Source: a virus
Strand: one strand, 5' to 3'
Length of the DNA: 64,000 nucleotides
IMG/VR virus record: IMGVR_UViG_3300032213_002237
Coordinates: 20,200 to 84,199 of that record
In this document: positions 4,012 to 61,403 of the stretch, piece by piece
How the letters are laid out: every line of letters begins with the position of its first letter
Numbering within the stretch: position 1 is the first letter of the stretch
Notes under the pieces: generated by a model
What the model was told of the DNA's origin: nothing
What the model saw: only the letters and a program-made list of their open reading frames with translations
Databases searched by the model: none
Position numbers and translations under genes: made by a program

Positions 4012-4030
4012 TAAAATTTATCATAAAATA

Positions 4031-4058
4031 GAAAACCCTTCATTTCTGAAGGGTTTTA
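4031..4058 (-). terminator. Intrinsic terminator after the 4065-5357 gene
   Basis: AAAACCCTT-loop-AAGGGTTTT hairpin with flanking A/T runs, lying between the stop of the upstream minus-strand gene and the terminase promoter. Confidence 0.8.
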
Positions 4059-4064
4059 AAGTTT

Positions 4065-5357
4065 TTAGTTGATACCTAATCCTTTTAAGAAATCGTCAAA
4101 ATCCTCATCATCGTCGTCATCATCCTCATATTTCTTCATAGTATCCTCATATTCTTCTTCTTTAAGTTCCGCAATGATTTCATCAACCATATCTTTTACC
4201 ATTTTCTTTCCTTTTGGTGAACCTGATAAAATTTCACGAGCCATTGCAAAGAATTCGTTTGGGGTAAGTTCAGCAAACTTAACAAGGAAATATTGTTGTA
4301 AGTTTCTCTTATCATCATCAAATAATTCATCAGGATAAGCTTCACGGAATTTTTGCCAAATAACTGGACCTAATCTCATATCCCAAATTTCACCAACAAC
4401 AGTATCTTGTGAATTGATTACCGCTTCTTGTCTTGTTTTATCTTTTGGTAATCCGTATGTTCCAGCAATTTCCATAACACCTTTAGCAAGTTCATGAATA
4501 AGGATTGGTAAGTTAACACCACGAGCTTTTACTGTCGGTGGGTCAGTCTTAGCGTCTAATTCAGACATACCATATGTCGATTCTCCACCACCTGCCATAC
4601 CTTGAACCATTGAGTCAGGCATTAACCAATAAAGTGAATCCGCAAATGACATAAAGACACCATACATATTCAGTAATCTTGGGTTAATAGCATTTAACTC
4701 TCTGTTTAATAATTCAAACATATAAGAAGATTGTTTAGCCGCTCCTTGAATAAGTGAATTAATAAATCTTCTTTTAGCCTTTTCTAAATCAAATTTTTCA
4801 AATGAATCCATGAAATCTTCAAGTTGTTCTTGTTCTTCTTCAGAGCCAAACATATTTTCAATTTCTTCTTCACTTGGTTCTTCACCTTTAGGTGATAACT
4901 TACTTGAATCAATGTCATTTGGTTTAACCAACTGCACATCATACTGTAACGCTCCTTCAGGAATACCAAATTCTTTTTGAACAAGTTCAATCGCAAGTTC
5001 TTCCAAGTATTCTTTGTTTTCAGATTCAATCTGAGCAATCTCTTGCATTGCGTTCATTACCATCATCTGAAGTCTCATCATTGAATTCTGTGATGTTACA
5101 TCTTCAAGACCTGTATATCTTTTTAATCTACCAATAACATCTTTAAATCTTTGTGATGCTATAAGTTGTTCAAAGTTAGATGGTTTATCCGGTCCTTCAG
5201 GTGTAATTTCAGGAAACGCCTTACTACCTGAATGAGGTGTTTCACCTTTCTCAAATTTAGATTGAATGTCAGGTGCCATTCTTTCAGGCCCTTCATATCC
5301 GATAGGTGCCTCATTAATTCGGTTAACCAATCTTCTTACTAATTGTTCTTTTTTCAT
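4065..5357 (-). CDS. Acidic structural-type protein of unknown function
   Basis: About 430 aa. I start it at the ATG at 5357 (MKKEQLVRRLVNRINEAPIG) rather than at a GTG three codons upstream, because the ATG leaves no overlap with the preceding gene. The N-terminus is a basic amphipathic helix ending INE-A, a fit to the hydrophobic-x-Glu cleavage pattern of T4-type prohead proteases. The middle is predicted helical, with a conserved-looking ILIHELAKGVMEIAG segment that lacks the second His of a zincin. The C-terminus is a run of Asp/Glu. Its position beside the terminase and its size suggest a capsid or core protein, but no family is recognised. Confidence 0.75.
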   Translation of the reverse strand: MKKEQLVRRLVNRINEAPIGYEGPERMAPDIQSKFEKGETPHSGSKAFPEITPEGPDKPSNFEQLIASQRFKDVIGRLKRYTGLEDVTSQNSMMRLQMMVMNAMQEIAQIESENKEYLEELAIELVQKEFGIPEGALQYDVQLVKPNDIDSSKLSPKGEEPSEEEIENMFGSEEEQEQLEDFMDSFEKFDLEKAKRRFINSLIQGAAKQSSYMFELLNRELNAINPRLLNMYGVFMSFADSLYWLMPDSMVQGMAGGGESTYGMSELDAKTDPPTVKARGVNLPILIHELAKGVMEIAGTYGLPKDKTRQEAVINSQDTVVGEIWDMRLGPVIWQKFREAYPDELFDDDKRNLQQYFLVKFAELTPNEFFAMAREILSGSPKGKKMVKDMVDEIIAELKEEEYEDTMKKYEDDDDDDEDFDDFLKGLGIN

Positions 5358-5358
5358 C

Positions 5359-6222
5359 TTACTCACCTTTTAATTTAATATTCATTTTACCAAAACTTAA
5401 ATAAGATGGTAATTCACCTTTTGGTCTTGGTTCAGCATCTGGTGCTGGTTTGAAAGGGTTTTTTCTAGTTGGGGTTGTTGTTTTTTCCTTTTCCTTAGTT
5501 TTTTCCTTTTCTTTAGTTCCTGAACCTTTTGGTCTTGGTTCAGTATCAGGTGCCGGTTTGAAAGGACTTTTTCTAGTAGGAGTTGTTGTTTTTTCCTTTT
5601 CTTTAGTTTTTTCTTTTGTTTTTGATTCTAAAATACTGGTGATTAAATCTTTTTTTGTCATAGTAGGTCTTAAATTTGATTCAACAATATCTCTCATTTT
5701 TTGTTCCAAAATTACTTCATATGGGTTTTTACCTTCTTTTAATGACTTTTTGACATCAAGAACACATCTTTCAAATTTTTTCTTTTCACCTTTAGTATAG
5801 TCATCTCTTTTCTTACCATCCAAATCTAATGATGATGTACAGATAGCCCAAGGATTTTTTTCAACTTTCTTTTTTGTTTTTTTCTTACCTTCAGTCATTT
5901 CAGTTTCAGTTACTGGAGTTACAGTTGTTTTACCACCTGAAGTATCAATTTCAATTCCATTAACCATAGTTTTACTATTTGGTTTAACTTCATATGTTGT
6001 AACCGTTTTACTTTTTGCGGTTGTATTTTGTGGTGTTGATTGTTCTTTAGTTTCAGATTTTTTAACTGAAGTCATTCTACCAATAGGTTTATTTATTCCC
6101 ATGAAACCAATAGCATTTACCATCTCGTGTAATTTTTTAATTTGACTCTCAGACATTTTAGATAAAATATTTTTACTAAATCCAGTCTTAAGAATTTCTT
6201 GAATTTGTTTTTTTGTTACCAT
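5359..6222 (-). CDS. Lys/Thr-rich protein with a duplicated C-terminal segment
   Basis: About 287 aa. The ATG at 6222 (MVTKKQIQEILKTGFSKN) is preferred over a TTG nine codons upstream. Very basic and Thr-rich. Residues about 195-270 contain two near-identical units (KTKEKEKTTTPTRK followed by PFKPAPD.EPRPKG). A cysteine pair flanks NPWAICTSSLDLDGKKRDDYT, a motif seen as an isolated domain in many phage proteins. It overlaps the end of the upstream gene by 35 nt and sits 1 nt before the next, so the block is probably one operon. Function unknown; scaffold- or core-like composition. Confidence 0.65.
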   Translation of the reverse strand: MVTKKQIQEILKTGFSKNILSKMSESQIKKLHEMVNAIGFMGINKPIGRMTSVKKSETKEQSTPQNTTAKSKTVTTYEVKPNSKTMVNGIEIDTSGGKTTVTPVTETEMTEGKKKTKKKVEKNPWAICTSSLDLDGKKRDDYTKGEKKKFERCVLDVKKSLKEGKNPYEVILEQKMRDIVESNLRPTMTKKDLITSILESKTKEKTKEKEKTTTPTRKSPFKPAPDTEPRPKGSGTKEKEKTKEKEKTTTPTRKNPFKPAPDAEPRPKGELPSYLSFGKMNIKLKGE

Positions 6223-13277: not shown

Positions 13278-13672
13278 GGGGATGTTTTTGGATTTGACAG
13301 GTATGAATCTGTCATAAAACGCACGTCGGGGCTAAACTAACCCTGTAAAACTGGTTTAAAACACAAACGGCAACACAATTGCAAAACTTTCTACACTCGG
13401 TTTAATCCGTACTGAAGAAGTAACTGTAGCCTAATCTAAGATTAGTATACAACGGGGTCGGTGAGCATATAACCTTGCAACAGAAGCTTGTACTGTGGTG
13501 TGGTTTCTATCCGAAAAGGAACAAAGTGGAGGATTAGTTCTCAGTAAACCGAACCACTATAAAATAAGGGAATTGTGAAGTTTCGGATTGTTTAGAAAAA
13601 CAATGACCTAAACGTGTAGTGTTTTATGGTCGACATATTTGGACCGGGGTTCGAGCCCCCGCATCTCCACCA
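13278..13672 (+). ncRNA. ssrA: tmRNA (ribosome rescue RNA) with an unusual tag
   Basis: 395 nt. The 5' end GGGGATG pairs with CATCTCC before an encoded ACCA at 13672. GGATTTGACAGG after the acceptor strand and GGGTTCGAGCCCC in the T arm are tmRNA hallmarks. An open frame from the GGC at 13369 to the TAA at 13432 would encode a 21-residue tag starting GNTIAKLSTL and ending EEVTVA. A Gly resume codon is usual in Bacteroidetes, whose cellular tags are much shorter and end in ALAA. The stop codon lies within a short hairpin (CTAATCT/AGATTAG), and the region after it should form the pseudoknots. Placement of the resume codon is my reading of the flanking sequence. Confidence 0.93.
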
Positions 13673-33689: not shown

Positions 33690-35480
33690 TTAAGAATAAA
33701 TTCCTTGACTATAAATTTTCCATTCTTTTTTTCGTCTGTCTTCGTATGGAAAATCAATAAAATGTTGTTCAACATTTCGTAAATTATTTGGATTATTTTT
33801 TAACGCTGCTGATAAATTTGGAGCTTCTTTTGTACAACCATCAAATCCCATTTGATAACATAATGAACACATCGCGTCTAATTGTTGTTGACTTAAGTTT
33901 GGGTATAAATTAAGTATTTTTTTTGCGTTTTTGTTTAATGTGTTTTTCATTAATTCTTTTGCCTTTGTTTCGGTAATATCAGGGTCATTAGGTTTAACAG
34001 GTATTCCACCAGGATAATACGTTGTACCATAACCTATTGTTGCCTTTGCTCCGGGAGTTGGGGATTTTCCTCTTAAACAACAATCAGGTTCTTTTCTCAC
34101 ACATTTACCACCTTTAGCGTCGTCATAAACACACTTAACAAAAAACTCAATATTCGCTACAAAATTTACAAGTTTATCTGAAACTGTTCCGACCCCAACT
34201 GTATTTGAATTTGATGACTTTTCTTTTGCAATTTTTGCAATTTTTTTAGCACCAGCTTTAACTGCATCAACAGCACCTCCTGAATTTGGTGTCATTTGGT
34301 CTTTTGATGGTGCCATAGAAGACCATGTATTCATTAAATTTGATTCTTCTTTTTTATCATCAGAACCAAAATATTTGTTATAGAAATCCATAGTCGATGT
34401 TTGCTCATTAATATTTGGTCTTAAAACCGTCATAGCCTCAGGGAAGTCTTTGTTTAAAACATCCTCATCCTTATTTGTGTAAGGAATGTTTTGTAAAACG
34501 TATCTAATTGAGTTTAGACCTGAAATCTTTTTATCGTTAGAATCCAAAACAACCCACGGATGATTCACTGTAGATGTCTTATCAAAAAGTTTTTGTTTAT
34601 ATTCTGTAAACTTTTCCCACACATCTTGCATCTTCTCATCATTCTCAGAATACTTCCAATATTTCAATGGTGACTTCTGTCTGAAATCAAATCTCTTAGC
34701 TTGAGTTTCTTTATCTATTGAGAACCAAAGTTTAAATAAGTAATCCCCATCAACAACCAATGATTCTTCAAAATCCTGAACATTATCCATAAAGTCTTCG
34801 TACTCTTCTGACGAACCATAACCCATTACAGGTTCAACTAATCCTCTATTGTACCAACTTCTATCAAAGAAGTTTATCTTACCTTTTTCAATTTGATTAC
34901 TGTATCTATCCCACCAGTTCTTTCTTTCATCAGGTGTTGGGATACCAAGAGCAATAACTTTATAATATCTTGGATTTAAATTTTCAGTGAATTTCTTAAT
35001 TGTAGAACCTTTACCTGCCGAGTCTCTTCCTTCAAAAACAATTATAACAGTTTTACCTGTTTGTTTTAACCATTCCTGTAACTTTAAAAGTTCAACCTGT
35101 AGAAAAAATATTTCTTTTTTATAAATGTCTTTATCTAAAATTGATGGTTCTTCTTCAGGATTAACAACTTCTTTTTTATTTTTTCTTTTTTCTAATGATT
35201 TAGTTAGTTGTTTGAAAAATTCAAAAACATTAATATCTTTGTTACCTTTTAACTTTAAAGTTTTTAAAACACCTCTTGTTATTAATCCAAAATCAACCAA
35301 ACCGTCTTTTGAGTAATCATCAATTTTATTAATAAATTTTTGAATTTGAGCACTATACACTTTATTATCTTTTAAAACTGAAACAAGATATTTTATTTCA
35401 GGGCTATATTTTGGCTTATCGGCCTCTTGTAAACCCATCATGTTTTTCATCTTACTAACTTCAGTCAATAAATTCCTCAT
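33690..35480 (-). CDS. Fusion of polyphosphate kinase 2 (PPK2) and a T4-type lysozyme domain
   Basis: 596 aa. The leader MRNLLTEVSKMKNMMGLQEA fits the packaged-protein pattern (LQE-A). Residues about 115-345 are a PPK2 domain: Walker A FEGRDSAGKGSTIKKF (about 149-164), Walker B/lid FFDRSWYNRGLVEPVMGY (about 204-221) and WKYSENDEKMQDVWEKFTEY. PPK2 enzymes move phosphate between polyphosphate and nucleotides. Residues about 345-440 are a linker. Residues about 440-596 resemble GH24 lysozymes (IEFFVKCVYDD with the likely catalytic Glu, KATIGYGTTYYPGG, LSQQQLDAMCSLCYQMGF). Both halves look intact. TATTTATC lies at the ATG, so a late, virion-packaged enzyme is likely. Confidence 0.85.
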   Translation of the reverse strand: MRNLLTEVSKMKNMMGLQEADKPKYSPEIKYLVSVLKDNKVYSAQIQKFINKIDDYSKDGLVDFGLITRGVLKTLKLKGNKDINVFEFFKQLTKSLEKRKNKKEVVNPEEEPSILDKDIYKKEIFFLQVELLKLQEWLKQTGKTVIIVFEGRDSAGKGSTIKKFTENLNPRYYKVIALGIPTPDERKNWWDRYSNQIEKGKINFFDRSWYNRGLVEPVMGYGSSEEYEDFMDNVQDFEESLVVDGDYLFKLWFSIDKETQAKRFDFRQKSPLKYWKYSENDEKMQDVWEKFTEYKQKLFDKTSTVNHPWVVLDSNDKKISGLNSIRYVLQNIPYTNKDEDVLNKDFPEAMTVLRPNINEQTSTMDFYNKYFGSDDKKEESNLMNTWSSMAPSKDQMTPNSGGAVDAVKAGAKKIAKIAKEKSSNSNTVGVGTVSDKLVNFVANIEFFVKCVYDDAKGGKCVRKEPDCCLRGKSPTPGAKATIGYGTTYYPGGIPVKPNDPDITETKAKELMKNTLNKNAKKILNLYPNLSQQQLDAMCSLCYQMGFDGCTKEAPNLSAALKNNPNNLRNVEQHFIDFPYEDRRKKEWKIYSQGIYS

Positions 35481-51133: not shown

Positions 51134-51520
51134 ATGAAACTCAAAGATAGATTAGATACATACACAACCCCTGAACTCAGAAGAATGGGGATGAAACTTA
51201 TAGCCATCACACGTCAGACACTCGGTCACGGAAACAAACCATTCCCCAAACTGAAAATCAGAAACGGGTTAACAGGTTCCTATGGTCAATACGATTTTGA
51301 AGCATTGGTGATTAACCCCTCAGCATGTGAGACAATGGAAATGTTTGTTAAAACAATCATCCATGAATACACCCACCACATACAAAGAGGTATCAAACGT
51401 AACTACGCATCATCCATGAAGAAAAACGGATATTGGGAATGTCCCTTTGAAGTGGAAGCTCGGGGGAATGAAACAAAGTACAAGAGTATTGTATGGAAAC
51501 AATTTAAACAAACCCCTTAA
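51134..51520 (+). CDS. SprT-like HExxH metalloprotease
   Basis: 128 aa. TIIHEYTHHIQRG contains HExxH with a further His, and FEVEARGNETKYKSIVWKQF supplies a downstream Glu, as in small SprT/MuTnp-type zincins. No cofactor domain. Such phage proteins may cleave host factors early; a target is not evident. Expressed with the 140-aa gene from a host-type promoter. Confidence 0.75.
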   Translation: MKLKDRLDTYTTPELRRMGMKLIAITRQTLGHGNKPFPKLKIRNGLTGSYGQYDFEALVINPSACETMEMFVKTIIHEYTHHIQRGIKRNYASSMKKNGYWECPFEVEARGNETKYKSIVWKQFKQTP

Positions 51521-51860: not shown

Positions 51861-52589
51861 GGTTTTAGACATATTAACAACTATAAATATAGTGTATATT
51901 ATGTATATTGTCCATAGGTAAATGTTCCCACTTTTTACCACTGACGTATATGTGAGAGGGGTTTTTGGTTGTATGAAAAGTGAAAAAAGTGGTCCTCCTG
52001 ATAGTGTGAGAAGGGTTTTTTTAACTATATACATTTTCCAGATAAAAATAGGATGTAACAATAAAGTGGCGTGGACAGACTTTAGTTGTTTAGAATCCTT
52101 CAACGGAAGTGTATTTTATAGTGTCTTCAACGGGGTTTTTAAGATTTCCCCTTACCATATAGACACATGATATGGACAATTATAGTGGTGGTAAATTGTG
52201 GGACATAATGTGTTATATAAGGGATAACCCTGTAGGGTTATGTTCCATATAAGGAACATTGTCCCCTTCACATTCCACCATATATTTTATACCCTAACAG
52301 GTATACTCATATCATATTATATACCCTTTAGGGTATTTCATTATCCCGATGGGGTACAATACCATTAACAGTATTATGTTATGTCCCTTCATAGTGTGTG
52401 TCTTTCATTAGGGGGATTATTATAGATTAGTGTTGTACGTTAATTATAGATTCATACAATAGGGGAAATTAGGAAGTAAACAAATGAATGAACCCATTAG
52501 TGTAATGACCCGAAGGGGAATGGAACGACACGATAGTGGAATGGGGTAATGAGTTTGTTTAGTTCCTAATTTCTTACTATATTTACTCT
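51861..52589. other. Long intergenic region with clustered hairpins
   Basis: About 730 nt with no convincing gene. A 9-bp pair, GGGACATAA (52200-52208) and TTATGTCCC (52379-52387), encloses ATAACCC-TGTA-GGGTTAT (52224-52241), ATGTTCC-ATATAA-GGAACAT (52240-52259), ATACC-CTAACA-GGTAT (52289-52304), ATACCC-TTTA-GGGTAT (52321-52336) and AATAC-8nt-GTATT (52358-52375). The left part (51880-52170) shows only weak repeats such as CTTCAACGG. Could be a replication origin, operator cluster or structured RNA. Confidence 0.6.
52554..52585 (+). promoter_or_regulatory. Host-type promoter for array gene 1
   Basis: TTTG (52554-52557), 20-nt spacer, TATATTTA (52578-52585); the ATG comes 4 nt later, so the message should be leaderless. 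Confidence 0.55.
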
Positions 52590-53252
52590 ATGGTTATTAC
52601 AGATAGATTAAAACAAATTATTTTTAAACACCTATATAAAGAGTTAGGTGATTGTGAGATTATTCCTTATAATGGGTCAATATGGTTTATTAATAGGGAT
52701 AATAAATACTGGTACTTTGAACTTGATAAATCAGGTACTTTATGGTGGAGATATGATTTTTTTAATTCGTTTTTTCAGATATTCTCCATGAGCTCAGATG
52801 ATTTTTGTCCTGTCCTATCTTCTTGGGTGGAAGAGGTATTAAATAGTAAGGTATCTACAACCGTGACAGGTAGCGGTGTTGAAAGCATGATGGTGGAAGA
52901 TGTATTAAATCATAAGGTATCCACAACGTGTGATGTTAAAGTTCGTGTTCCTTGGAAGGTGGAAGAGGTCTTAAATCATAAGGTATCCACAACAACACCG
53001 AGCCTCTCTATCCATTCCAGCGGGGTGGAAGATGTATTGAATAGTAAGGTATCCACAACTAACACTCACAATGCTCATATCCGAACACGGGTGGAAGATG
53101 TATTAAGTCATAATGTTAAGGTGTCTACAACTACCATTCTCAAATACCCCGAGCATTCATTGGTGGAAAAGGTCTTAAATCATAAGGTATCCACAACGCA
53201 GAATTTGAATTATGTCGGCCAAGGACTGGTGGAAGAGGTATTAAATCAATAA
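52590..53252 (+). CDS. Array gene 1: small domain plus CRISPR-like coding repeats
   Basis: 220 aa. Residues 1-78 are a folded domain (MVITDRLKQIIFKHLYKELG, SIWFINRDNKYWYFELDKSG, LWWRYDFFNSFFQIFSM) related in plan to the class A paralogs. It ends in the helix SSWVEEVLNSKVSTT. From there the 12-residue unit VEEVLNHKVSTT recurs every 22 residues, separated by 10-residue segments that share nothing with each other. Six full repeats and a truncated seventh are in frame up to the stop. Related genes at 60047 and 60669 have the same plan. Function unknown; the repeats are also very constant at the DNA level. Confidence 0.75.
   Translation: MVITDRLKQIIFKHLYKELGDCEIIPYNGSIWFINRDNKYWYFELDKSGTLWWRYDFFNSFFQIFSMSSDDFCPVLSSWVEEVLNSKVSTTVTGSGVESMMVEDVLNHKVSTTCDVKVRVPWKVEEVLNHKVSTTTPSLSIHSSGVEDVLNSKVSTTNTHNAHIRTRVEDVLSHNVKVSTTTILKYPEHSLVEKVLNHKVSTTQNLNYVGQGLVEEVLNQ
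52826..53251. repeat. CRISPR-like array 1 (7 repeats, 6 variable segments)
   Basis: A 36-nt repeat (plus strand starts GGTGGAAGAGGTAT and ends AAGGTATCCACAAC) begins at 52826, 52892, 52958, 53024, 53090, 53162 and 53228; the last is truncated at the stop. Spacing is exactly 66 nt except for a 6-nt insertion in the fifth repeat. The six intervening 30-nt segments are unrelated to each other. Confidence 0.9.
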
Positions 53253-53284
53253 TAGTTATTATCTTTGTTATATTTATATTCTAT

Positions 53285-53620
53285 ATGAAATATCTTATAA
53301 CAGAATCTAAATTAGAAAAAGTAATCTTTAGGTATCTTGACAACCAAGATTTTATTCAGGTTGAGGATAAAGACACTATATACTTTGTTAATTCAGGAGG
53401 TGATAAGTATTGTCAAATCAGATACGATATGAGTGATAATTTTTCTTTTATGAATTATGAATTAGTTGACGATATTTCATCATTCTTTTCTTTGAGTGAT
53501 TCTGATTCTGAGAAGATTATTGTTCGATGGATTGGTGATACATTACAAGTAAAATACAGTTACGAAAAATCAATGTCCATTACAAACAGTGGAAGTTTGA
53601 CATTGAGGTTACCCTTCTAA
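53285..53620 (+). CDS. Class A paralog, 111 aa
   Basis: Leader MKYLITESKLEKVIFRYLDN, then IQVEDKDTIYFVNSGGDKYC, QIRYDMSDNFSFMNYELVDD, ISSFFSLSDSDSEKIIVRWI, GDTLQVKY. Plan: leader helix, four-strand sheet, SSFFS helix, WV/WI..TL helix. TATTTATATTCT precedes the ATG. Type member for the island. Confidence 0.75.
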   Translation: MKYLITESKLEKVIFRYLDNQDFIQVEDKDTIYFVNSGGDKYCQIRYDMSDNFSFMNYELVDDISSFFSLSDSDSEKIIVRWIGDTLQVKYSYEKSMSITNSGSLTLRLPF

Positions 53621-53636
53621 CTAATATTTATATATA

Positions 53637-53933
53637 ATGAAATACCTCATAACAGAATCACAATTAGATAAAGTAATCTTTAGATATTTGGATATTAAGA
53701 ACTTTATTCGGATTAAAAGAGGAAACGCAATATACTTCGCCAATTCTGAAGGTGGTGAATATATCGACTCATCAATTGAATACTTTAAAGGTGGTGAGTG
53801 TGTAATAATTTTTGAGTTAATTGATGAGATTAAAGATTTCTTCTCTATAGAATTTGATAGTTCTAAATATGTTATTGCTAGATGGGTTGAGAATACTTTG
53901 GATAGAAGAGTTAAAGAAGTTATAGTTAGATAG
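53637..53933 (+). CDS. Class A paralog, 98 aa
   Basis: MKYLITESQLDKVIFRYLDI leader; YFANSEGGEYIDSSIEYFKG, KDFFSIEFDSSKYVIARWVE, NTLDRRVKEV. Shorter C-terminus than its neighbour. TATTTATATATA directly before the ATG. Confidence 0.75.
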   Translation: MKYLITESQLDKVIFRYLDIKNFIRIKRGNAIYFANSEGGEYIDSSIEYFKGGECVIIFELIDEIKDFFSIEFDSSKYVIARWVENTLDRRVKEVIVR

Positions 53934-54639
53934 TTATTATTTTCCACACCCCGTTATAATCTTCTACAAGACATGTAGAGTTCTCACAAAAGTCTCCTGA
54001 GTTCATATAGTCATTCTCTATCTTCGGGTGATGAATATGTCCACACACCGCAACATCATATCCCTTTTGTTTTGTTAGACCTTTCGCGTTATCTTCAAAA
54101 TCAGATACAAAGTTAATTGCCCCTTTAACTGATTGTTTTATTGTATTTGCCAGTGAATGATATGGTAAGTTAAACCACTTTCTTATTTTGTTATATAGAG
54201 TATTAAACTTAATCACAATATCATATGACCATCCACCGATTACTGCTAACCATCTTGCTTCCATTATAACGAAATCCAATACATCCCCGTGAAAACAAAA
54301 ATACTTTCTATCATCTATTCCTGTATGTATATACTTTCTTACAATCCTGATGTTGTTTAATTTAAATGGAATAAAATCTTTTAGGAAGTCATCGTGGTTT
54401 CCTCTTATATAAACCACCTTTGTATTCTTCTCTGACATCTTCATGAACCTTCTGAATATCTTGGTACAATCCTTTGTCCATTTACCGTTACCTTTAAGAG
54501 CCCAACCATCTATTATATCACCGTTCAATATTAGTTTTTCCGTTGTGTTATTATCCAAGAAACTTATTATCTTATCTGTCTGTGATTGTCTTGCTCCTAA
54601 GTGTAAGTCACTCATGATTATCGTTTTCCAATTATTCAT
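53926..54639 (-). CDS. LpxH-like metallophosphoesterase
   Basis: 237 aa; ATG 54639 overlaps the stop of the glycosyltransferase gene (ATGA). Calcineurin-type motifs in order: SDLHLG, GDIIDGWALKGNGKW, RGNHDD, CFHGDVLD, GHIHHPK. Together with LNGDIIDGW and GNHDDFLKDF this is closest to UDP-2,3-diacylglucosamine diphosphatase and its relatives, which act on lipid A precursors at the membrane. Substrate not proven. With the GT2 gene it may remodel lipid or surface sugars. Confidence 0.85.
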   Translation of the reverse strand: MNNWKTIIMSDLHLGARQSQTDKIISFLDNNTTEKLILNGDIIDGWALKGNGKWTKDCTKIFRRFMKMSEKNTKVVYIRGNHDDFLKDFIPFKLNNIRIVRKYIHTGIDDRKYFCFHGDVLDFVIMEARWLAVIGGWSYDIVIKFNTLYNKIRKWFNLPYHSLANTIKQSVKGAINFVSDFEDNAKGLTKQKGYDVAVCGHIHHPKIENDYMNSGDFCENSTCLVEDYNGVWKIITI

Positions 54640-55343
54640 TCCCAATATCCTTTATCGTTTTCAAAATGAGTTTTATTGTTCCTGTTGAAGAATGAACTAA
54701 CCATAAGTTTTAACATATACCACACACCTTTCTGTTTGAACCTTCTTGGACTTGTGAATACCGTTGTATTCATGATATAAAACTTGCTTGGTTTAACTTG
54801 TTTGGAGAATAGATAATCCTCGGCAACTCTTGCGTTTTCATCAAACCCACCGATTGTATCATATACTTCTTTCTTAACCATCATGAACCCACCAAGACAA
54901 AATGGTGTGATTGGTTTGAATACCTTTTGTATTGTATCAAATAATCTGAATATACTATTATACTCACCTGTCGTTGACCTTACCTTACATGTAATCAAAT
55001 CTGTGTTATGTAATAAGAACTCCCATATACAATTGTTTAATATGTCAAAATCCAATAAGAATATGTCAGCATCCAAAAATAGAACATAAGGTGTTTCCAC
55101 ATTCTCAGCTCCCTTATTTCTTGCAACAGACGGAAGTCCTCCTGAAATAATCTGTAGATTAAAATAATCTGTTCTCCTATTTTCCAAAGAATAGGATGTA
55201 TAATCATCATCCGATGAATCACAAACAATAACTCTAACATCTTGTATTCCCTTTTGAAAGTTTAATAAGGACAACGTTTGTTCTATTATCTTACCCTCGT
55301 TCTTACAAGGGATTACTATGGTTAAAAACTTTGATAAATCCAT
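54636..55343 (-). CDS. Family 2 glycosyltransferase
   Basis: 235 aa. GT-A fold signals: TIVIPCKNEGKIIEQTLSLL (nucleotide-sugar site), VIVCDSSDDDYT, GLPSVARNKGAENVETPYVL, FLDADIFLL (DxD metal site), then GGFMMVKKEVYDTIGGFDEN and AEDYLFSKQ (catalytic ED). No membrane segment at the end. The acceptor is unknown; pairing with the LpxH-like gene suggests host surface glycan or lipid modification. Inserted amid class A paralogs on the opposite strand. Confidence 0.88.
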   Translation of the reverse strand: MDLSKFLTIVIPCKNEGKIIEQTLSLLNFQKGIQDVRVIVCDSSDDDYTSYSLENRRTDYFNLQIISGGLPSVARNKGAENVETPYVLFLDADIFLLDFDILNNCIWEFLLHNTDLITCKVRSTTGEYNSIFRLFDTIQKVFKPITPFCLGGFMMVKKEVYDTIGGFDENARVAEDYLFSKQVKPSKFYIMNTTVFTSPRRFKQKGVWYMLKLMVSSFFNRNNKTHFENDKGYWE

Positions 55344-55431
55344 AATAATAAGTATTAAAAATCACCCCCAAACCATATTATCATATTCTTATTAAATTAT
55401 TAACCCAATATGTATTGTTCAGTTTTATGTG

Positions 55432-55451
55432 TATCTTTGTATTTATATATA
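55432..55451 (+). promoter_or_regulatory. Overlapping early-type and late-type elements
   Basis: TATCTTTG (55432-55439) runs into TATTTATATATA before the ATG at 55452, so one gene may have both promoter types. Confidence 0.45.
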
Positions 55452-55805
55452 ATGAAATACCTTATCACCGAATCAAAATTAGAGAAAGTAATCTTTAAAT
55501 ATCTTGATATTCAGGACTTTGTCATGTATGACAACAAGAAGAGATTCAACAATTATATATATTTCTTAAACAGTGAGTCAGATAGGCAATCACAGATTAG
55601 TGTTTATGTTAACAACGCCTTTGGTGAAGTTAGGAATTGGGTGTTTGTAAATCGTCGTTTGACTGAGGAATTAACTAACTTCTTCCCCATTGATAAATCG
55701 GATTGTTTGGATATAATCAAAGCATGGGTTAATGATACTTTGGGTATTAGTGATAGTACGATTTGGGATGGTCCATATGATTACAGATTAATGGTTACAG
55801 ATTAA
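55452..55805 (+). CDS. Class A paralog, 117 aa
   Basis: ATG 55452 (MKYLITESKLEKVIFKYLDI); the longer frame runs through promoter elements. YIYFLNSESDRQSQISVYVN, LTNFFPIDKSDCLDIIKAWV, NDTLGISD. Tail YDYRLMVTD. Same domain plan as its neighbours. Confidence 0.75.
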   Translation: MKYLITESKLEKVIFKYLDIQDFVMYDNKKRFNNYIYFLNSESDRQSQISVYVNNAFGEVRNWVFVNRRLTEELTNFFPIDKSDCLDIIKAWVNDTLGISDSTIWDGPYDYRLMVTD

Positions 55806-55818
55806 TAGTTAACGAAGA

Positions 55819-56127
55819 ATGAAATACTTAATTACAGAATCACAGTTAGATAGAATGATTAACAAATATCTTGACAATCAGGACTTTATTCAGATTGAAA
55901 GGAATGATGCAATATACTTTCTTAATTCAGAACTTGATGGATTTGCTGAGATAAAATATGATATGGAAGATGGTCGGTGTTTTATACATTATAAATTAAT
56001 TTACGAAATTTCTTCCTTCTTTTCTATTGATGAATTTGATTCTAAAGAAGTTATTAGTAGATGGGTTAAGAATACCCTACAAATGAAGGTCACTGACACC
56101 TCAGGGGCAATATTACCACTACCATAG
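55819..56127 (+). CDS. Class A paralog, 102 aa
   Basis: MKYLITESQLDRMINKYLDN; YFLNSELDGFAEIKYDMEDG, SSFFSIDEFDSKEVISRWVK, NTLQMKVTDT. The last helix plus VTDT aligns with the WVEEVLNHKVSTT unit of the array genes. Confidence 0.75.
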   Translation: MKYLITESQLDRMINKYLDNQDFIQIERNDAIYFLNSELDGFAEIKYDMEDGRCFIHYKLIYEISSFFSIDEFDSKEVISRWVKNTLQMKVTDTSGAILPLP

Positions 56128-56164
56128 TGAGTTCAGAATACCTTACAACTAATACTTATATATA

Positions 56165-56443
56165 ATGAAATACCTTATAACAGAATCACAGTTAGAAGCA
56201 TTTTTACTTAGGAGGTTTACAATGGATGAATTGGAATCACTTAGGGATGATTATAACTACATTATGGATGAAGAAGATTTTGAAGATTCCGCCGACAGAG
56301 ATGACTACGCTTATGAATTAATTGAAAAGTTCATTGATAGACATAGAGGTGAAGAGTTTTTTCAATATGATGATGATACTGAATTCTACGCAAAACGTTC
56401 CGATTATATTAGAGCATTACTCAAATTCTTAAACTCTAATTAA
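56165..56443 (+). CDS. Class A leader protein with a different body, 92 aa
   Basis: MKYLITESQLEAFLLRRFTM, then an all-helical acidic body (LESLRDDYNYIMDEEDFEDS; FIDRHRGEEFFQYDDDTEFY). The leader is conserved but the domain is not that of its neighbours, showing that leader and body are separable modules. Confidence 0.75.
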   Translation: MKYLITESQLEAFLLRRFTMDELESLRDDYNYIMDEEDFEDSADRDDYAYELIEKFIDRHRGEEFFQYDDDTEFYAKRSDYIRALLKFLNSN

Positions 56444-56446
56444 TCT

Positions 56447-56776
56447 TTAGAAACCTTTTCTTTCATTATACATCCGTGTAATTCTTTTTCTATAATGATT
56501 TTCTAACCCTTGGTGTATATCATCATACCAAAATTCATCTTCAGGTAATGTACTAACAAATCTCCAATGAACACTATCCATCATAACGGTTATTGTTGTG
56601 TAGACTAACTCATCTAAAAAATGTGAACTTAAAACCTTTCTGTTCTTTGTAATACGATAAGCATCTTCAAAAGATTCAAGAAACTCATTTTCCATTTCAT
56701 CATTAGAAAGTCTTCTTTTAATTCTCGCCGATAGTTCTTCCCTCAGTATTCTTTTTATAGATTCTTTTAAGTTCAT
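56447..56776 (-). CDS. Class C leader protein, 109 aa
   Basis: ATG 56776 (MNLKESIKRILREELSARIK). LRE-E/S ends the leader; the body is helical (MENEFLESFEDAYRITKNRK) with a DEFWYDDIHQGLENHYRKRI end. Adjacent to, and just downstream of, the next class C gene. Confidence 0.7.
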   Translation of the reverse strand: MNLKESIKRILREELSARIKRRLSNDEMENEFLESFEDAYRITKNRKVLSSHFLDELVYTTITVMMDSVHWRFVSTLPEDEFWYDDIHQGLENHYRKRITRMYNERKGF

Positions 56777-56777
56777 A

Positions 56778-57149
56778 TTAGTAAGCATATTCAGCATTAT
56801 CAAACGTATTAACTTCGTAGATATCTTCTAACTCATCGTAATTTTCTTGGAACCATTTAACCAAACTATCATTTATCTCATCCCAAGTTTCTTTTGAAAA
56901 CACTGAAGACAAAAGATTCCATATATCCTCATCAATCATAACTTCCATTGCGTCTCTTCTTTTGTTATAAAATATGGTAGCACGTAAATTATCATTATTG
57001 TCAGTGATGTCAAATCTACCAGCGTCATGATTATACCCCTCTTTAAATCGACCAACAGGTTTAATTAATGACGTAATATATCCGTCAATTATCTTATCCT
57101 TTTTGAATTCTTCTTTGAGTATCCTTTTAATTGTCCCTTCTAAGTTCAT
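56778..57149 (-). CDS. Class C leader protein, 123 aa
   Basis: MNLEGTIKRILKEEFKKDKI leader; beta domain (GRFDITDNNDNLRATIFYNK) and helix ETWDEINDSLVKWFQENYDE. Divergent from the class A gene at 57183; TATTTATA elements for both lie in 57150-57182. Confidence 0.7.
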   Translation of the reverse strand: MNLEGTIKRILKEEFKKDKIIDGYITSLIKPVGRFKEGYNHDAGRFDITDNNDNLRATIFYNKRRDAMEVMIDEDIWNLLSSVFSKETWDEINDSLVKWFQENYDELEDIYEVNTFDNAEYAY

Positions 57150-57182
57150 ATTATTATAAATATGATTATATTTATATTTTAT

Positions 57183-57503
57183 ATGAAATACCTCATCACC
57201 GAATCACAATTAGATAAAGTCAAATCGGTAATAAATAATTTAATGATGTCTGAGTTAAATAAATTATTAGATTATGATAGAACATCAGATAGTGATTTTA
57301 TTAATATATATAGTCCTGAAAGAGGCCCTGATTTTTTTATTTTAATGGAGTTTGACCACAGCGATGGTAGATTATATATTGATGAATCTTTTTTAGATAA
57401 GTTTTCATCCATGTATCCACTTGATAAAGAACAATCAGGTAAATTCATCTCTGATTGGTTTAGTAAAGCATTTGATGTTGATGTTATGTTTTTTGATTAT
57501 TAA
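57183..57503 (+). CDS. Class A paralog, 106 aa
   Basis: MKYLITESQLDKVKSVINNL; body ILMEFDHSDGRLYIDESFLD, SSMYPLDKEQSGKFISDWFS, KAFDVDV. More divergent but with the same order of elements. TATTTATATTTT upstream. Confidence 0.7.
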   Translation: MKYLITESQLDKVKSVINNLMMSELNKLLDYDRTSDSDFINIYSPERGPDFFILMEFDHSDGRLYIDESFLDKFSSMYPLDKEQSGKFISDWFSKAFDVDVMFFDY

Positions 57504-57506
57504 TAT

Positions 57507-57839
57507 ATGAAATACCTTATCACCGAATCACAATTAGACAGAGTAATCTTTAGATATTTGGATAGTCAGAACTTTATTCAGATTGAAACAAGTAGTAATA
57601 TATTCTTTGTTAATTCAGAAGATGATGAACATGCCCAAATTAAATATAATAAAAAAAATGGTTGGTGTCACATAAATTTAAATTTAATTGAGGACATCTC
57701 TGCGTTATTTTCTTTAAATGATACAACATCTAAAGATATTATTGGTAAGTGGGTTGAACATACCCTACAAATGGAAGTTACTTACGCACAATGGGTTGTC
57801 TTCAGCAAGTCCGCAAATTTGAGGGTTTACTTTAACTAA
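57507..57839 (+). CDS. Class A paralog, 110 aa
   Basis: MKYLITESQLDRVIFRYLDS; FIQIETSSNIFFVNSEDDEH, ISALFSLNDTTSKDIIGKWV, EHTLQMEVTY; tail NLRVYF. Only 3 nt after the previous gene, so co-translated. Confidence 0.75.
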   Translation: MKYLITESQLDRVIFRYLDSQNFIQIETSSNIFFVNSEDDEHAQIKYNKKNGWCHINLNLIEDISALFSLNDTTSKDIIGKWVEHTLQMEVTYAQWVVFSKSANLRVYFN

Positions 57840-57851
57840 TATTTACATATA

Positions 57852-58262
57852 ATGAAATACTTAATCACTGAGAATCAATATAGCAAAACTCTTAAACCCT
57901 TATTAGAGAAATTTGGTATGCGTACTCTGTGTAAAATGACTGATAAGGAACCTGAAGATATTATTGATGAGATTGGTCTTAAAGGAACAAGAGAAGATAT
58001 TATCTTTCTAACAAAAACTATACTTGAAAATGATATCTCAACCGTCTTGATGTATTGTAGTTATAATATCATCCCCACTCGTGACTCTATAAATTTGGTC
58101 GTCTACATACCTAAGCCAGCTCCTGCAAATGTGGGAAGGTATATCTATGAGGAAGGTACAAGAAGTATGTATAGAGATGTTATTTCTAAGGCTTTATATC
58201 AGTTCGGTGGCGGTCTAATTAGAGGTCACAATATTGAGGTTTATAATACAGGAAATTGTTAA
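57852..58262 (+). CDS. Class A leader protein with a different body, 136 aa
   Basis: MKYLITENQYSKTLKPLLEK, then helical and beta parts (DIIDEIGLKGTREDIIFLTK; INLVVYIPKPAPANVGRYIY). It does not share the WV..TL end. Part of the same tight plus-strand run. Confidence 0.7.
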   Translation: MKYLITENQYSKTLKPLLEKFGMRTLCKMTDKEPEDIIDEIGLKGTREDIIFLTKTILENDISTVLMYCSYNIIPTRDSINLVVYIPKPAPANVGRYIYEEGTRSMYRDVISKALYQFGGGLIRGHNIEVYNTGNC

Positions 58263-58278
58263 CTAATATTTATATATA

Positions 58279-58635
58279 ATGAAATATCTTATCACCGAAT
58301 CTAAATTAAAAACATTCATTAAAGACAAGTTTAATATTGACCTGACAGGTCGTGTGGAGTTTGACCCAGATTTAACTGATGTAATGATAATTTTTGATGA
58401 GTGTATTAGTTATAATAGTATGCAAAGAAGATTTAATATGGACAATTATGGTCCGATGTATCTTATAAAATTAGATAATAGTTATGATTTACTTTATCAG
58501 ATGAATTATGCCACAGGTCAATCTTGGATTATTAATAACGGATGTGATACTTGGGATGAATCCGACTTTATGAACTTTTTTGGTATCTCAGGTCTTGGAA
58601 TATCAATTGAACAATTTCTTGATTTATACGTATAA
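58279..58635 (+). CDS. Class A leader protein with a different body, 118 aa
   Basis: MKYLITESKLKTFIKDKFNI, body DLTDVMIIFDECISYNSMQR, DTWDESDFMNFFGISGLGIS. TATTTATATATA precedes it. Its 3' end overlaps the convergent class C gene by 12 nt. Confidence 0.7.
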   Translation: MKYLITESKLKTFIKDKFNIDLTGRVEFDPDLTDVMIIFDECISYNSMQRRFNMDNYGPMYLIKLDNSYDLLYQMNYATGQSWIINNGCDTWDESDFMNFFGISGLGISIEQFLDLYV

Positions 58636-58947
58636 GACATCAACACATTGCTTATTATAAAACTTTTCTAAGTCATCCCTCATGTAGTTTTCTACATACG
58701 TAACACCATCTTTATATGTTAACCAATCAGACAACGGTCCATCGGTATCAGAACCATCTGTAATCATGTCCATAATTTCATGTTGTATACCACGCATGAA
58801 CGCTTCAAAGTTTTCAAAATCACAGGGATAATTAGTTACATTGTTATCCCATACAAACGATTTAAATCTATTCAATCTTCTTTTGAACTTTGGCGAAAAC
58901 TCTGTTTCTTCCCTTAATACTTTTTTTATATTCTCTTGTAGGTTCAT
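58624..58947 (-). CDS. Class C leader protein, 107 aa
   Basis: MNLQENIKKVLREETEFSPK leader, then a helical body (RLNRFKSFVWDNNVTNYPCD; MRGIQHEIMDMITDGSDTDG). Divergent from 58980 with facing TATTTATA elements. Confidence 0.7.
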   Translation of the reverse strand: MNLQENIKKVLREETEFSPKFKRRLNRFKSFVWDNNVTNYPCDFENFEAFMRGIQHEIMDMITDGSDTDGPLSDWLTYKDGVTYVENYMRDDLEKFYNKQCVDVLYV

Positions 58948-58979
58948 AATATTATAAATATAATTATATTTATTATTAC

Positions 58980-59675
58980 ATGAAGTATATTATTACCGAA
59001 ACACAATTAGTTAAAGCGGCGTTTAGGGTTCTTGATGCCCAACGTTTTAAACAAGTTGAAATTGATAATAAAATTTATTTTATACATTCGGACGATAATG
59101 AATTTTCTGATATTACATATGATAAAAAATATAGAATATGTTATATTCATATGGGTTTAGTCAATGCAATTACTTCTTTTTTTTCTTTAAAAGATTATCA
59201 TGAGTCTAAAAAAATTATTCTTAAATGGGTCGAACGCACTCTTCAAATGAATGTTGATGATGCATGGACACTACAAAAAGGTGGAGTCACCTCATTACGT
59301 TTACCTGAACAACCTATCACCGAGTCACAACATAAATTAATATCCGAACTTGAAAGAACTTGGAGAGATTTTGAATATACGGAACAATACAATAGACTAA
59401 AACCTAAAATGATTCGTTATTTTGAAAATTTGGTTGATTCACATTCTGAAAATGATGTAAGACTTAACTTATTTGATAGTGACCTAAACGCCGTAATGGT
59501 TTATAATAAACCAAGTGGTGATTTATACTATAATAGGAACTTTGACGATATATATGGTACAGCCTTTCCTCATCCTATTTGGTTAGTTCACGGCAAATTC
59601 ATTATGTCAGATGTATTTAATGAGTTCTTTCCTGACTACGAAGTTAAATCAGTTAGAAGTATAACATTATCATGA
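58980..59675 (+). CDS. Fusion of two class A-type units
   Basis: 231 aa. Residues 1-105 are a complete paralog (MKYIITETQLVKAAFRVLDA; FSLKDYHESKKIILKWVERT). Residues about 112-130 then read LPEQPITESQHKLISELERT, which keeps the ITESQ core of a leader, followed by a second body (RLNLFDSDLNAVMVYNKPSG; DVFNEFFPDYEVKSVR). The simplest origin is loss of the stop between two adjacent genes. Overlaps the next start by ATGA. Confidence 0.75.
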   Translation: MKYIITETQLVKAAFRVLDAQRFKQVEIDNKIYFIHSDDNEFSDITYDKKYRICYIHMGLVNAITSFFSLKDYHESKKIILKWVERTLQMNVDDAWTLQKGGVTSLRLPEQPITESQHKLISELERTWRDFEYTEQYNRLKPKMIRYFENLVDSHSENDVRLNLFDSDLNAVMVYNKPSGDLYYNRNFDDIYGTAFPHPIWLVHGKFIMSDVFNEFFPDYEVKSVRSITLS

Positions 59676-60010
59676 AATATTTAATCACAGAATCACAATT
59701 AGATAAAGCAATACTCAAGTTTCTTGATAGCCAGAATTTTGATATCCTTAAAAAAGGTGCCAGTACATACTTTGTAAATTCAGACGATTGGTTTGCTCAG
59801 ATTAAATATGGTGGTAGACATCGTAATGATGAGTTGTGTTTTATCTATTTTGAATTAATTCAAAAAGTATCTTCATTCTTTTCTATAGAGTCGTATAAAG
59901 CTGAATCAGTTATCGGACAATGGGTCAAGAAAAAACTGAACTTGGGGGGTAATATGACCAATCATAAATTATACAGTCAATGGTCGTTAAAAATACCAAC
60001 TGATTATTAA
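59672..60010 (+). CDS. Class A paralog, 112 aa
   Basis: MKYLITESQLDKAILKFLDS; YFVNSDDWFAQIKYGGRHRN, SSFFSIESYKAESVIGQWVK, KKLNLGGNM. Coupled to the fusion gene by ATGA. Last class A member before the array genes. Confidence 0.75.
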   Translation: MKYLITESQLDKAILKFLDSQNFDILKKGASTYFVNSDDWFAQIKYGGRHRNDELCFIYFELIQKVSSFFSIESYKAESVIGQWVKKKLNLGGNMTNHKLYSQWSLKIPTDY

Positions 60011-60041
60011 TTTGTATTTTCAAAGTTTTTTTGTATCTTTG
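60011..60041 (+). promoter_or_regulatory. Host-type promoter for array genes 2 and 3
   Basis: TTTG (60011-60014), 19-nt spacer, TATCTTTG (60034-60041); the ATG at 60047 lies 5 nt later. Confidence 0.7.
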
Positions 60042-60046
60042 TGCTT

Positions 60047-60682
60047 ATGGTTACAGATAAGCTAAAACAACTCATATTCAAACACCTATACAAAGAGTTA
60101 GGTAATGTGGAGATAATCCCGTATAAAGACTCTGTATGGTTCATTGATAGGGAAAATTGTTATTGGTATTTTCAGTTGTCTAAAGAGGGATGTTTATTTT
60201 GGAGATACTCATTCTTCCCATCGTTTTTCAGTATTTTCTCTTTGGAACAGAGTGAGTTTGAACCAATAATATCTTCTTGGGTGGAAGAGGTATTAAATCA
60301 TAAGGTATCCACAACTCGTATACCTTCCGTACGCCGAGACAATAAGGTGGAAGAGGTATTAAATCATAAGGTATCCACAACAGGTAATACATTGGCCCAC
60401 CGCTTACTTCAGGTGGAAGAGGTCTTAAATCATAAGGTATCCGAAACTCTTTTCTTTGCGTCTTTTTCAAATGTGCTGGTGGAAGAAATATTAAATCATA
60501 AGGTATCCGAAACTTTTGAAGTAGACGCCGCCCAAAAAAGAAAGGTAAAAAAAGTATTAGATAGTAGGGTATCTACAACTAAAAATAATTCCTTGTTTTC
60601 CGAAAGGTCAGTGGAAGAAGTATTAAATAGTGTTTGGGTGAAAAATGCATTAAACAACAAAAAAGAAAATGAAAGTAACTGA
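60047..60682 (+). CDS. Array gene 2: small domain plus CRISPR-like coding repeats
   Basis: 211 aa from ATG 60047 (MVTDKLKQLIFKHLYKELGN); an upstream GTG is part of the promoter box. Domain SVWFIDRENCYWYFQLSKEG, LFWRYSFFPSFFSIFSLEQS, then SSWVEEVLNHKVSTT and five or six 22-residue units. The fifth unit has drifted (VKKVLDSRVSTT), and the tail repeats a shortened form (VWVKNALNNK). The stop lies inside the next gene (14-nt overlap), so both are translated together. Confidence 0.75.
   Translation: MVTDKLKQLIFKHLYKELGNVEIIPYKDSVWFIDRENCYWYFQLSKEGCLFWRYSFFPSFFSIFSLEQSEFEPIISSWVEEVLNHKVSTTRIPSVRRDNKVEEVLNHKVSTTGNTLAHRLLQVEEVLNHKVSETLFFASFSNVLVEEILNHKVSETFEVDAAQKRKVKKVLDSRVSTTKNNSLFSERSVEEVLNSVWVKNALNNKKENESN
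60280..60645. repeat. CRISPR-like array 2 (6 repeats, 5 variable segments)
   Basis: 36-nt repeats begin at 60280, 60346, 60412, 60478, 60544 and 60610, exactly 66 nt apart. The fifth and sixth are degenerate. Variable segments are 30 nt and unrelated to each other. Confidence 0.9.
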
Positions 60683-61403
60683 TAGATTAAAACAGGTTGT
60701 ATTCAAACAACTATATAAAGAATTAGGTAATGTGGAGATAATCCCATATAAAGATTCTATATGGTTAATTGACCGAGAAAAGGAGCATTGGTATTTTGAA
60801 TTTGAAAAGAGTGGTCGTTTGTGGTGGAGATATTATTTCTTTAATAGTTTTTTTACCATTTTCTCATTGGAACCCAAAGATTTTGAACCAATACTCGCTT
60901 CTTGGGTGGAAGAGGTATTAAATCATAAGGTGCCCACAACTGAATTGTGTGCGGAGAAAAAGTATGATGAGGTGGAAGAGGTATTAAATCATAAGGTATC
61001 TACAACTGTTTACATGGGCATGAAGGCAAGTGTGAAGATGGAAGAGGTATTAAATCATAAGGTATCCACAACGCAAAACGATATCGGTAACGAAGGTTTC
61101 TTGGTGGAAGATGTATTAAATCATAAGGTATCTACAATATCATTCAATACACCGCCGTTTCCGAATATGGTGGAGAAGGTATTAAATCATAAGGTGTCTA
61201 AAACCTATTGTAGACCCACTATTGTTCTCAGTGAGGTGAAAGAAGTCCTAAATCATAAGGTAACTACAACCGATTTCTGGAATAGTGAAAAGGACACTCT
61301 GGTGGAAAAGGTATTAAATCATAAGGTAACTACAACACACACATCGCGTACATGTAATTCACCAGTGGTGGAAGAGATATTAAATGAAAACCCCACTGAG
61401 TAG
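60669..61403 (+). CDS. Array gene 3: small domain plus CRISPR-like coding repeats
   Basis: 244 aa, MKVTDRLKQVVFKQLYKELG, SIWLIDREKEHWYFEFEKSG, LWWRYYFFNSFFTIFSLEPK, then ASWVEEVLNHKVPTT and seven further units. Variants include VEKVLNHKVSKT and VKEVLNHKVTTT. The last unit stops at VEEILNENPTE, where the coding sequence runs into a terminator. Shares promoter and translation with array gene 2. The head domain is about as similar to array genes 1 and 2 as they are to each other. Confidence 0.75.
   Translation: MKVTDRLKQVVFKQLYKELGNVEIIPYKDSIWLIDREKEHWYFEFEKSGRLWWRYYFFNSFFTIFSLEPKDFEPILASWVEEVLNHKVPTTELCAEKKYDEVEEVLNHKVSTTVYMGMKASVKMEEVLNHKVSTTQNDIGNEGFLVEDVLNHKVSTISFNTPPFPNMVEKVLNHKVSKTYCRPTIVLSEVKEVLNHKVTTTDFWNSEKDTLVEKVLNHKVTTTHTSRTCNSPVVEEILNENPTE
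60905..61390. repeat. CRISPR-like array 3 (8 repeats, 7 variable segments)
   Basis: Repeats begin at 60905, 60971, 61037, 61103, 61169, 61235, 61301 and 61367 (last truncated), an exact 66-nt period throughout. The seven 30-nt segments are unrelated to each other. Confidence 0.92.

Follow-up and report, generated by a model that had tools for sequence, protein, structure and literature searches.

The stretch of viral DNA analysed here (the window: 64,000 nt, positions 20,200 to 84,199 of IMG/VR record IMGVR_UViG_3300032213_002237) contains three paralogous genes, A, B and C, all on the forward strand, each of which joins an N-terminal domain to a terminal array of 36-nt repeats and 30-nt spacers. 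Gene A (52590-53252; 220 aa), delimited by its ORF and homolog alignment, has its N-terminal domain at 52590-52825 (alignments A1 and A4), the end of which occupies the position that a leader takes in a CRISPR locus. Its array (52826-53252) has repeats starting at 52826, 52892, 52958, 53024, 53090 (42 nt) and 53162, with a partial copy at 53228, and spacers at 52862-52891, 52928-52957, 52994-53023, 53060-53089, 53132-53161 and 53198-53227. Gene B (60041-60682), recognized likewise by ORF and alignment, starts either with the GTG at 60041 or with the ATG at 60047, which would yield 211 aa; its domain (60047-60279; alignments A1 and A4) is followed by an array (60280-60682) with repeats at 60280, 60346, 60412, 60478 and 60544, a partial one at 60610, and spacers at 60316-60345, 60382-60411, 60448-60477, 60514-60543 and 60580-60609. 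Gene C (60669-61403; 244 aa; ORF and alignment) has its domain at 60669-60904 and its array at 60905-61403, where eight repeats follow in 66-nt steps from 60905 to a partial last copy at 61367, separated by spacers at 60941-60970, 61007-61036, 61073-61102, 61139-61168, 61205-61234, 61271-61300 and 61337-61366.

This layout bears out an earlier sequence-only reading of the window, which had counted 7, 6 and 8 repeats in the three genes (the last is partial in each) and 18 spacers of exactly 30 nt. The single 6-nt insertion that it noted is also real, and sits within repeat 5 of array A rather than in a spacer. The repeat, GGTGGAAGAGGTATTAAATCATAAGGTATCCACAAC, retains the proposed length of 36 nt, but the boundary of the DNA unit lies 1 nt away from where it had been drawn, and its first base is the third base of a codon. 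The spacers have a GC content of 44%, against 31% for the window.

Array-less, single-copy relatives of the N-terminal domain occur within 53285-60010 (for example at 53285-53620, 53637-53933, 55819-56127, 57507-57839 and 59672-60010), as recovered by alignment A3 and clustering. In these, a C-terminal W-V-x-x-x-L-x-x-K-V motif marks the point where the repeat starts in the array genes, and the repeat is homologous to their C-terminus. AlphaFold predicts the domain of gene C, and by homology that of gene A, with high confidence (pLDDT 93.7) as a helix followed by four strands and two helices, whereas its model of a whole array protein is poor (mean pLDDT 52.6). The earlier notion of constant helical units finds confirmation in the first repeat alone, which is predicted to continue the last helix of the domain; the predicted fold of the later repeats is of low confidence. 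Searches of Pfam, PHROGs and PADLOC with the array proteins gave no significant useful match (best PHROG E=0.0014, of unknown function), and the PDB offered neither a fold match nor a sequence match below E=0.2.

Homologous arrays are found elsewhere in IMG/VR, where we collected about 50 distinct examples with about 190 unique 30-nt spacers. They reach up to about 12 units, and 257 of 273 units keep to a 66-nt period, showing the regular repeats and near-constant spacer length by which CRISPR arrays are recognized. Other paralog subfamilies (L077, L080, L083, L084, L092 and L095) have the same architecture built on different cores, and the repeat cores vary between genes within one phage. In a scan by pattern alone, every array match but one lies in an open gene of this superfamily; the other, at locus L101, lies in a different open gene. 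A further match, at L091, was rejected as a chance occurrence within a tail-fibre-like repeat. The only neighbours recurring beside the arrays are members of the same superfamily and a protein with a HEYTHH motif. The array-bearing phages are large, uncultured and widespread, with several records of 200-326 kb.

Comparison of these arrays firmly indicates that the unit is defined in DNA and not in protein. A G inside a codon begins 134 of 141 junctions, and residues that have no G-ending codon are found at only 3 of the 141, as opposed to 31% elsewhere (p=5e-19). Moreover, lysine is encoded by AAG in 40 of 41 cases in first repeats and in 90 of 320 in the N-terminal domain; for threonine and ACA, the same comparison gives 40 of 43 and 35 of 106. 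These biases demonstrate a DNA-level constraint at specific repeat positions, synonymous sites of the repeats being constrained. The original proposal, of an array that is translated and at the same time conserved at the DNA level, is upheld. In array A, the distance from AAGGT to the end of the repeat is unaltered by the 6-nt insertion. The more specific assignment of the repeats to the Bacteroidetes type II or VI-B kind found no confirmation: they match no CRISPR family in Rfam, a degenerate form of the repeat had no exact match in the prokaryote genomes searched, and no conserved hairpin of the kind seen in many CRISPR repeats was predicted, there being no consensus structure and no covariation above shuffled controls.

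The spacers are no more alike than shuffled sequence, in keeping with the first description: the minimum Hamming distance is 12 of 30, equal to that of shuffles, and no intermediate similarity was found among unique spacers. Related phages could have shown them to be ordinary diverged copies; instead, spacers are either identical or wholly unrelated, in conserved order. This bears on the idea of an ordinary tandem-repeat protein, wherein 66-nt units duplicate by recombination, after which strong positive selection drives the 10-residue linkers apart and the 12-residue helix is conserved. The homology of the repeat to the C-terminus of the array-less relatives fits this idea, as does the loss and exchange of units between related arrays. 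However, the units of such proteins are related over their whole length, whereas here each new unit brings an unrelated 30-mer, the unit boundary falls inside a codon, the period is held at 66 nt, and spacers common to several phages show slow, mostly constrained change; this explanation is already disfavoured and, we believe, very improbable.

The arrays are also polarized. The order graph of the spacers is acyclic; along the array in the 5'-to-3' direction, the difference between successive repeats climbs from 2.0 nt to 8.8 nt; and in pairs of related arrays the last spacer is common in 22 of 32 cases and the first in 4 of 32. Among 20 private spacers, seven are in first position and none in last. 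Spacers turn over next to the N-terminal domain, at the 5' end; the 3' end is common to related arrays and carries decaying repeats. This firmly points to a polarity of the CRISPR leader-trailer type, with polarized acquisition, although some differences between arrays are internal and require deletion or recombination in addition to gain at the leader end. The acquisition pattern, the ordered turnover, the unrelatedness of the spacers and the recurrence with several repeat cores are established by these comparisons.

Unlike CRISPR arrays, which are non-coding, these arrays are coding. The chance that the 18 spacers of the window would stay open is 2e-5, in agreement with the sequence-only estimate near 1 in 100,000, and chance openness becomes untenable because homologous arrays occur in other contigs. 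A scan made without any coding requirement yielded 77 unique spacers with no in-frame stop, against 26-77 stops in the other frames. The pattern-only scan yielded 115 unique spacers with a single within-spacer stop in the array frame, where 66 were expected, and that one belongs to L101, whose gene is read in another frame; within the 112 phage spacers there are none (about 46-66 expected across scans). One stop at a junction, in L073, has only a single decayed unit downstream of it. Spacers shared between phages have an omega of about 0.38 (p=0.007), and 4-fold sites within spacers likewise indicate codon constraint (p=1e-7). Hence the arrays, as the earlier reading supposed, are by the measure of stop counts and omega firmly judged to be translated and selected as protein. 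The translated frame of the spacers is more coding-like than stop-purged random sampling predicts (0.41 versus 0.28, best-frame), which suggests that sampling may not be frame-blind or that selection extends beyond stops.

These observations weigh on the alternative that the loci are phage-borne CRISPR mini-arrays acting as RNA, with guides cut from the mRNA by host nucleases and a frame that stays open only on account of a translated operon, for instance to avoid Rho-dependent polarity. The 36/30 geometry, the turnover at the leader end and the decay of the trailer do match CRISPR, and there are known phage mini-arrays that lack cas genes and rely on the Cas proteins of the host (PMC6858448). 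Yet the lack of a conserved hairpin, the codon constraint within the spacers, the differing repeat cores among genes of one phage and the failure to find a protospacer in the sequences searched together make it unlikely.

The origin of the spacers was also sought. A comparison with phage and plasmid sequences, as the first reading had proposed, gave no source: blastn against INPHARED phages and PLSDB plasmids returned only the arrays themselves or chance-level matches. Neither did the phage's own record, those of 14 relatives or all collected loci contain a protospacer, nor did exact 24-mers of three spacers reveal one in IMG/VR. The higher GC of the spacers suggests a non-phage origin. Another alternative is that the arrays are adaptation decoys, in which mimic repeats divert prespacer insertion by host Cas1-Cas2 from the host array to phage DNA, the peptides being by-products. 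Repeat mimicry in several paralogs and polarized insertion are in its favour; however, the spacers, as far as tested, do not come from these phages and are higher in GC, and the peptide tail must count for something, given that in-frame stops are nearly absent and omega is below 1. We regard it as quite improbable.

As for the enzyme, no cas1 or cas2 was found above cut-off in the phage records searched; a Cas1 candidate in L074 (E=0.005, 13 bits) fell below it and was discounted. A degenerate repeat pattern, with an exact match required, had no match in about 85,000 prokaryote genomes, and no relatives of the N-terminal domain were found in prokaryote genome contigs. The absence of cas1 from the records searched, despite the size of several, and of any host repeat found would suit a novel phage-encoded integrase or recombinase, distinct from Cas1, as the builder of the units. 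This competes with only the enzyme part of our proposal, and the want of a consistent neighbour other than the same superfamily and the HEYTHH-motif protein speaks against it, as does the possible incompleteness of several records; we consider it a minority possibility, albeit one with appreciable weight.

Accounting best for these features, and probably correctly, is the growth of a translated array within a phage gene by a CRISPR-adaptation-like integrase. We posit that the C-terminal coding sequence of the phage domain (Trp-Val-Glu-x-x-Leu-x-x-x-Val-x-Thr-Thr) would also serve as a 36-bp integration site, where the integrase would place a presumably foreign 30-bp fragment beside the N-terminal domain and duplicate the first repeat. 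As the resulting unit is 66 bp, the reading frame would be preserved, so that each acquisition would add one new 10-residue segment between constant 12-residue segments. Spacers with in-frame stops would be lost and stop-free ones persist, while older units would move toward the 3' end, a region of repeat decay and of loss or exchange of units. Weighing against this model are the failure to find cas1 or cas2, a matching prokaryote repeat or a protospacer in the sequences searched, the lack of a conserved hairpin, the internal differences between arrays and the unexpectedly coding-like frame of the spacers. Integration at the leader end of a 36-nt repeat with an internal length ruler is a property of Cas1-Cas2 (PMC6895254), and the AAGGT-to-end distance that survives the insertion in array A is in line with such a ruler; whether the enzyme is a host Cas1-Cas2 we judge to be evenly balanced. 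The peptides themselves may be what functions, serving to bind or to act as decoys and diversified to keep up with a changing target. That the arrays form a heritable peptide memory, in which pieces of foreign DNA captured by CRISPR-type adaptation act as 10-residue peptides and not as guide RNA, is plausible, though we rate it a little below even.

Several known systems offer partial parallels. CRISPR type II-A and other 36/30 arrays share the 36-bp repeat, the unique 30-bp spacers, gain at the leader end that duplicates the first repeat, the decayed trailer repeat and ordered shared trailer spacers (PMC6895254); the phage arrays differ in being coding, in frame and protein-constrained, in lacking cas genes and a conserved hairpin, and in a repeat core that varies between genes of one genome. 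Viral mini-CRISPR arrays and RNA anti-CRISPR repeats are likewise CRISPR-like units without cas genes and with spacer turnover, but comprise 1-2 spacers or single repeats that match host repeats and act as RNA (PMC6858448, PMC11656645), whereas the present arrays are longer and are translated as one protein with a conserved phage domain. Spurious proteins predicted over CRISPR arrays also have an open frame spanning repeats and spacers, but are accidental and often near cas genes (PMC7673337); here, the frame is kept across many independent spacers and extends a conserved domain. L101, a type V-F-like phage locus, shares 36-nt repeats with a GGTG.AAG start and CAAC end, 30-nt spacers, and one array in frame within a Cas12f/TnpB-like gene; that protein is unrelated, and a second array there with a palindromic core resembles an ordinary non-coding CRISPR array. 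Diversity-generating retroelements achieve targeted diversification of the C-terminus of a phage protein through substitutions confined to one variable region that stays fixed. The phage arrays similarly diversify a C-terminus, but by the addition of units, and no reverse transcriptase (PF00078) was found in 20 records. The literature searched held no description of arrays that grow in the manner of CRISPR and are yet read as protein.

To our knowledge, CRISPR adaptation is known solely as a route to RNA guides. Here, array growth of the CRISPR kind is joined to translation and peptide selection in a widespread group of large phages. Should Cas1-Cas2 be the enzyme, adaptation would gain a second output in the form of protein diversity; otherwise, there would be a second ruler-guided machine for acquiring spacers. 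With either enzyme, the arrays are a record of what has recently taken place between an uncultured phage and its host.

The arrays occur in an IMG/VR virus record of 84,199 bases, of which the window comprises bases 20200-84199. The large terminase belongs to the T4 type (Pfam Terminase_6N), and Flavobacterium phages, at 28% identity, are its best named relatives among the matches listed with near-full coverage. Three genes (52590-53252, 60041-60682 and 60669-61403) couple an N-terminal domain of about 79 residues to an array at the end, with a protein unit of 12 constant and 10 variable residues. In the DNA, a 36-nt repeat with the consensus GGTGGAAGAGGTATTAAATCATAAGGTATCCACAAC and a unique 30-nt spacer make up one unit; these lengths agree with the sequence-only reading, while the boundary does not, being displaced one base from its division. 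Neither INPHARED nor the GTDB genomes contain a relative of the N-domain, and its predicted fold (pLDDT 93.7) has no PDB match and retrieves only unnamed proteins from uncultured phages in BFVD. The repeat derives from the domain's C-terminal motif, which is also present in array-less relatives within the same window.

Several other features share this genome. The intergenic region upstream of the first array gene (52120-52560) contains many short palindromes, such as ATACCCTTTAGGGTAT, and a HEYTHH-motif protein with no Pfam match (51134-51520) lies near arrays in 11 loci. Dozens of small window proteins, encoded for example at 53285, 56165, 57852, 58624, 61457 and 45465, start with MKYLITESQL, MNLQENIRRVLREE or MKKIVRLTESDL; these N-termini are similar to the capsid-targeting propeptides of T4, which end in (L/I)xE, and the proteins may be components of the head that are packaged or ejected. 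The window also encodes a tmRNA (13278-13672; predicted tag AKLSTLGLIRTEEVTVA) and a fusion of polyphosphate kinase 2 and phage lysozyme domains in one gene (33690-35480).

Scanning IMG/VR with three queries (protein, repeat and N-domain alignment) recovered dozens of loci; parsing these distinguished 50 arrays, which between them contain 165 unique 30-nt spacers. This extraction was confined to open frames and is therefore unusable alone for stop counts, for which we used two scans free of that bias: one with the consensus repeat and one with an end-motif pattern comprising just the two repeat ends across two periods (20 fixed bases, coding not required). The latter brought the union to 193 unique spacers and uncovered further superfamily members whose 36/30 arrays have different repeat cores, namely the IMG/VR loci L080 and L095 (VEEHYKMGVTTT), L077 (VDESYNLKGVTT), L083 and L084 (VED(V/A)LKRGVSTT), and L085 and L092 (VEEVLN.EVETT).

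The consensus-repeat scan yielded 77 spacers with no in-frame stop, as against 26-77 stops in the other five frames, and the end-motif scan yielded 115 with one within-spacer stop against 66 expected. That one belongs to L101, a Type V-F-like phage locus whose gene reads another frame. The only array with a stop seen in this superfamily is that of another locus (L073:492-620), where a junction TAG closes the seventh spacer and a single decayed unit lies beyond. Spacers present in more than one phage differ by 15 synonymous and 20 non-synonymous changes (neutral ratio 3.5 to 1; omega ~0.38, p=0.007). These results bear out the earlier claim of translation, and selection in the spacers, both against stops and on residues, indicates that the peptide tail matters. 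L101 (IMGVR_UViG_3300017987_000527; features at 2561-4162, 4548-5010 and 5730-5830) presents a separate case: an in-frame 36/30 array (GGTGGAAGCGACCCCAAAAAGGGTGGTGCACACAAC, unit GGSDPKKGGAHN) sits inside its Cas12f/TnpB-like gene (PADLOC Cas12f E=4e-13). Downstream come two more arrays, whose repeats are palindromic (GGTGTAAGCGGCCTCATTTTGAGGGGTAGATGCAAC and a relative), and the record yielded no cas1.

That the array is also conserved as DNA, as had been proposed from the sequence, is confirmed at the codon level. The first base of the repeat occupies the third position of a codon that is otherwise unconstrained in its residue, and it is G in 134 of 141 unique junctions; residues lacking a G-ending codon make up 3/141 there versus 31% at other spacer positions (p=5e-19). 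Likewise, Lys is encoded by AAG in 40/41 cases in first repeats versus 90/320 in the N-domain, and Thr by ACA in 40/43 versus 35/106. Within the repeat, codons 1-3, 6, 8 and 11 are constrained and codons 4, 5, 9 and 12 only weakly so, which marks out the ten opening bases, an AAGG in the interior and the ACAAC at the end. An analogy can be drawn with the features that direct Cas1-Cas2 integration: the junction of leader and repeat, an internal ruler and the distal end (PMC6895254).

Although they sit in translated genes, the arrays grow with the behaviour of CRISPR adaptation. Adjacent repeats at the 5' end, beside the N-domain, differ by 2.0 nt, a figure that rises to as much as 8.8 nt further along. 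Across 32 pairs of related arrays, the last spacer is common in 22 and the first in 4. Comparing arrays of related phages for segment gain, loss or swap, as the sequence-only reading had suggested, showed them to be ordered, with private spacers first in 7/20 cases and last in 0/20; the order of shared spacers never changes, and the order graph is thus acyclic. Given the phylogenetic relatedness of the arrays, none of these counts is independent. Internal differences between related arrays are also present and require deletion or exchange of units. Because the phage records searched, several being fragments, contain no Cas1 or Cas2 above the cut-off and no reverse transcriptase, we see a host Cas1-Cas2 acting on a mimic repeat in the phage gene as the simplest candidate enzyme; there is precedent for host proteins extending virus-borne arrays (PMC6858448).

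As for the origin of the spacers, the searches identified no source. Within the window's own record and 14 related ones, its spacers matched arrays alone; INPHARED and PLSDB produced no match other than 22-nt ones at chance level, and exact searches of IMG/VR with three spacer cores retrieved either the arrays themselves or no match. The GC content of the spacers is 44% in the window and 40% over the whole set, versus 31% for the phage, and their synonymous sites are biased much as in coding sequence (T 0.38, G 0.13, p=1e-7). The translated frame looks best in 41% of spacers. The expectation is 28% if coding DNA were sampled frame-blind with stops purged and ~70% if all were in frame, with a Bacteroidota plasmid and the phage's own sequence serving as models in place of the true source; the spacers are therefore likely a mixture, with some in-frame enrichment or some residue selection. 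A guide-RNA product is not supported, as the repeat has no conserved hairpin. We favor the array protein being a binder or mimic, whose 10-residue segments would bind or imitate a target that changes over time.
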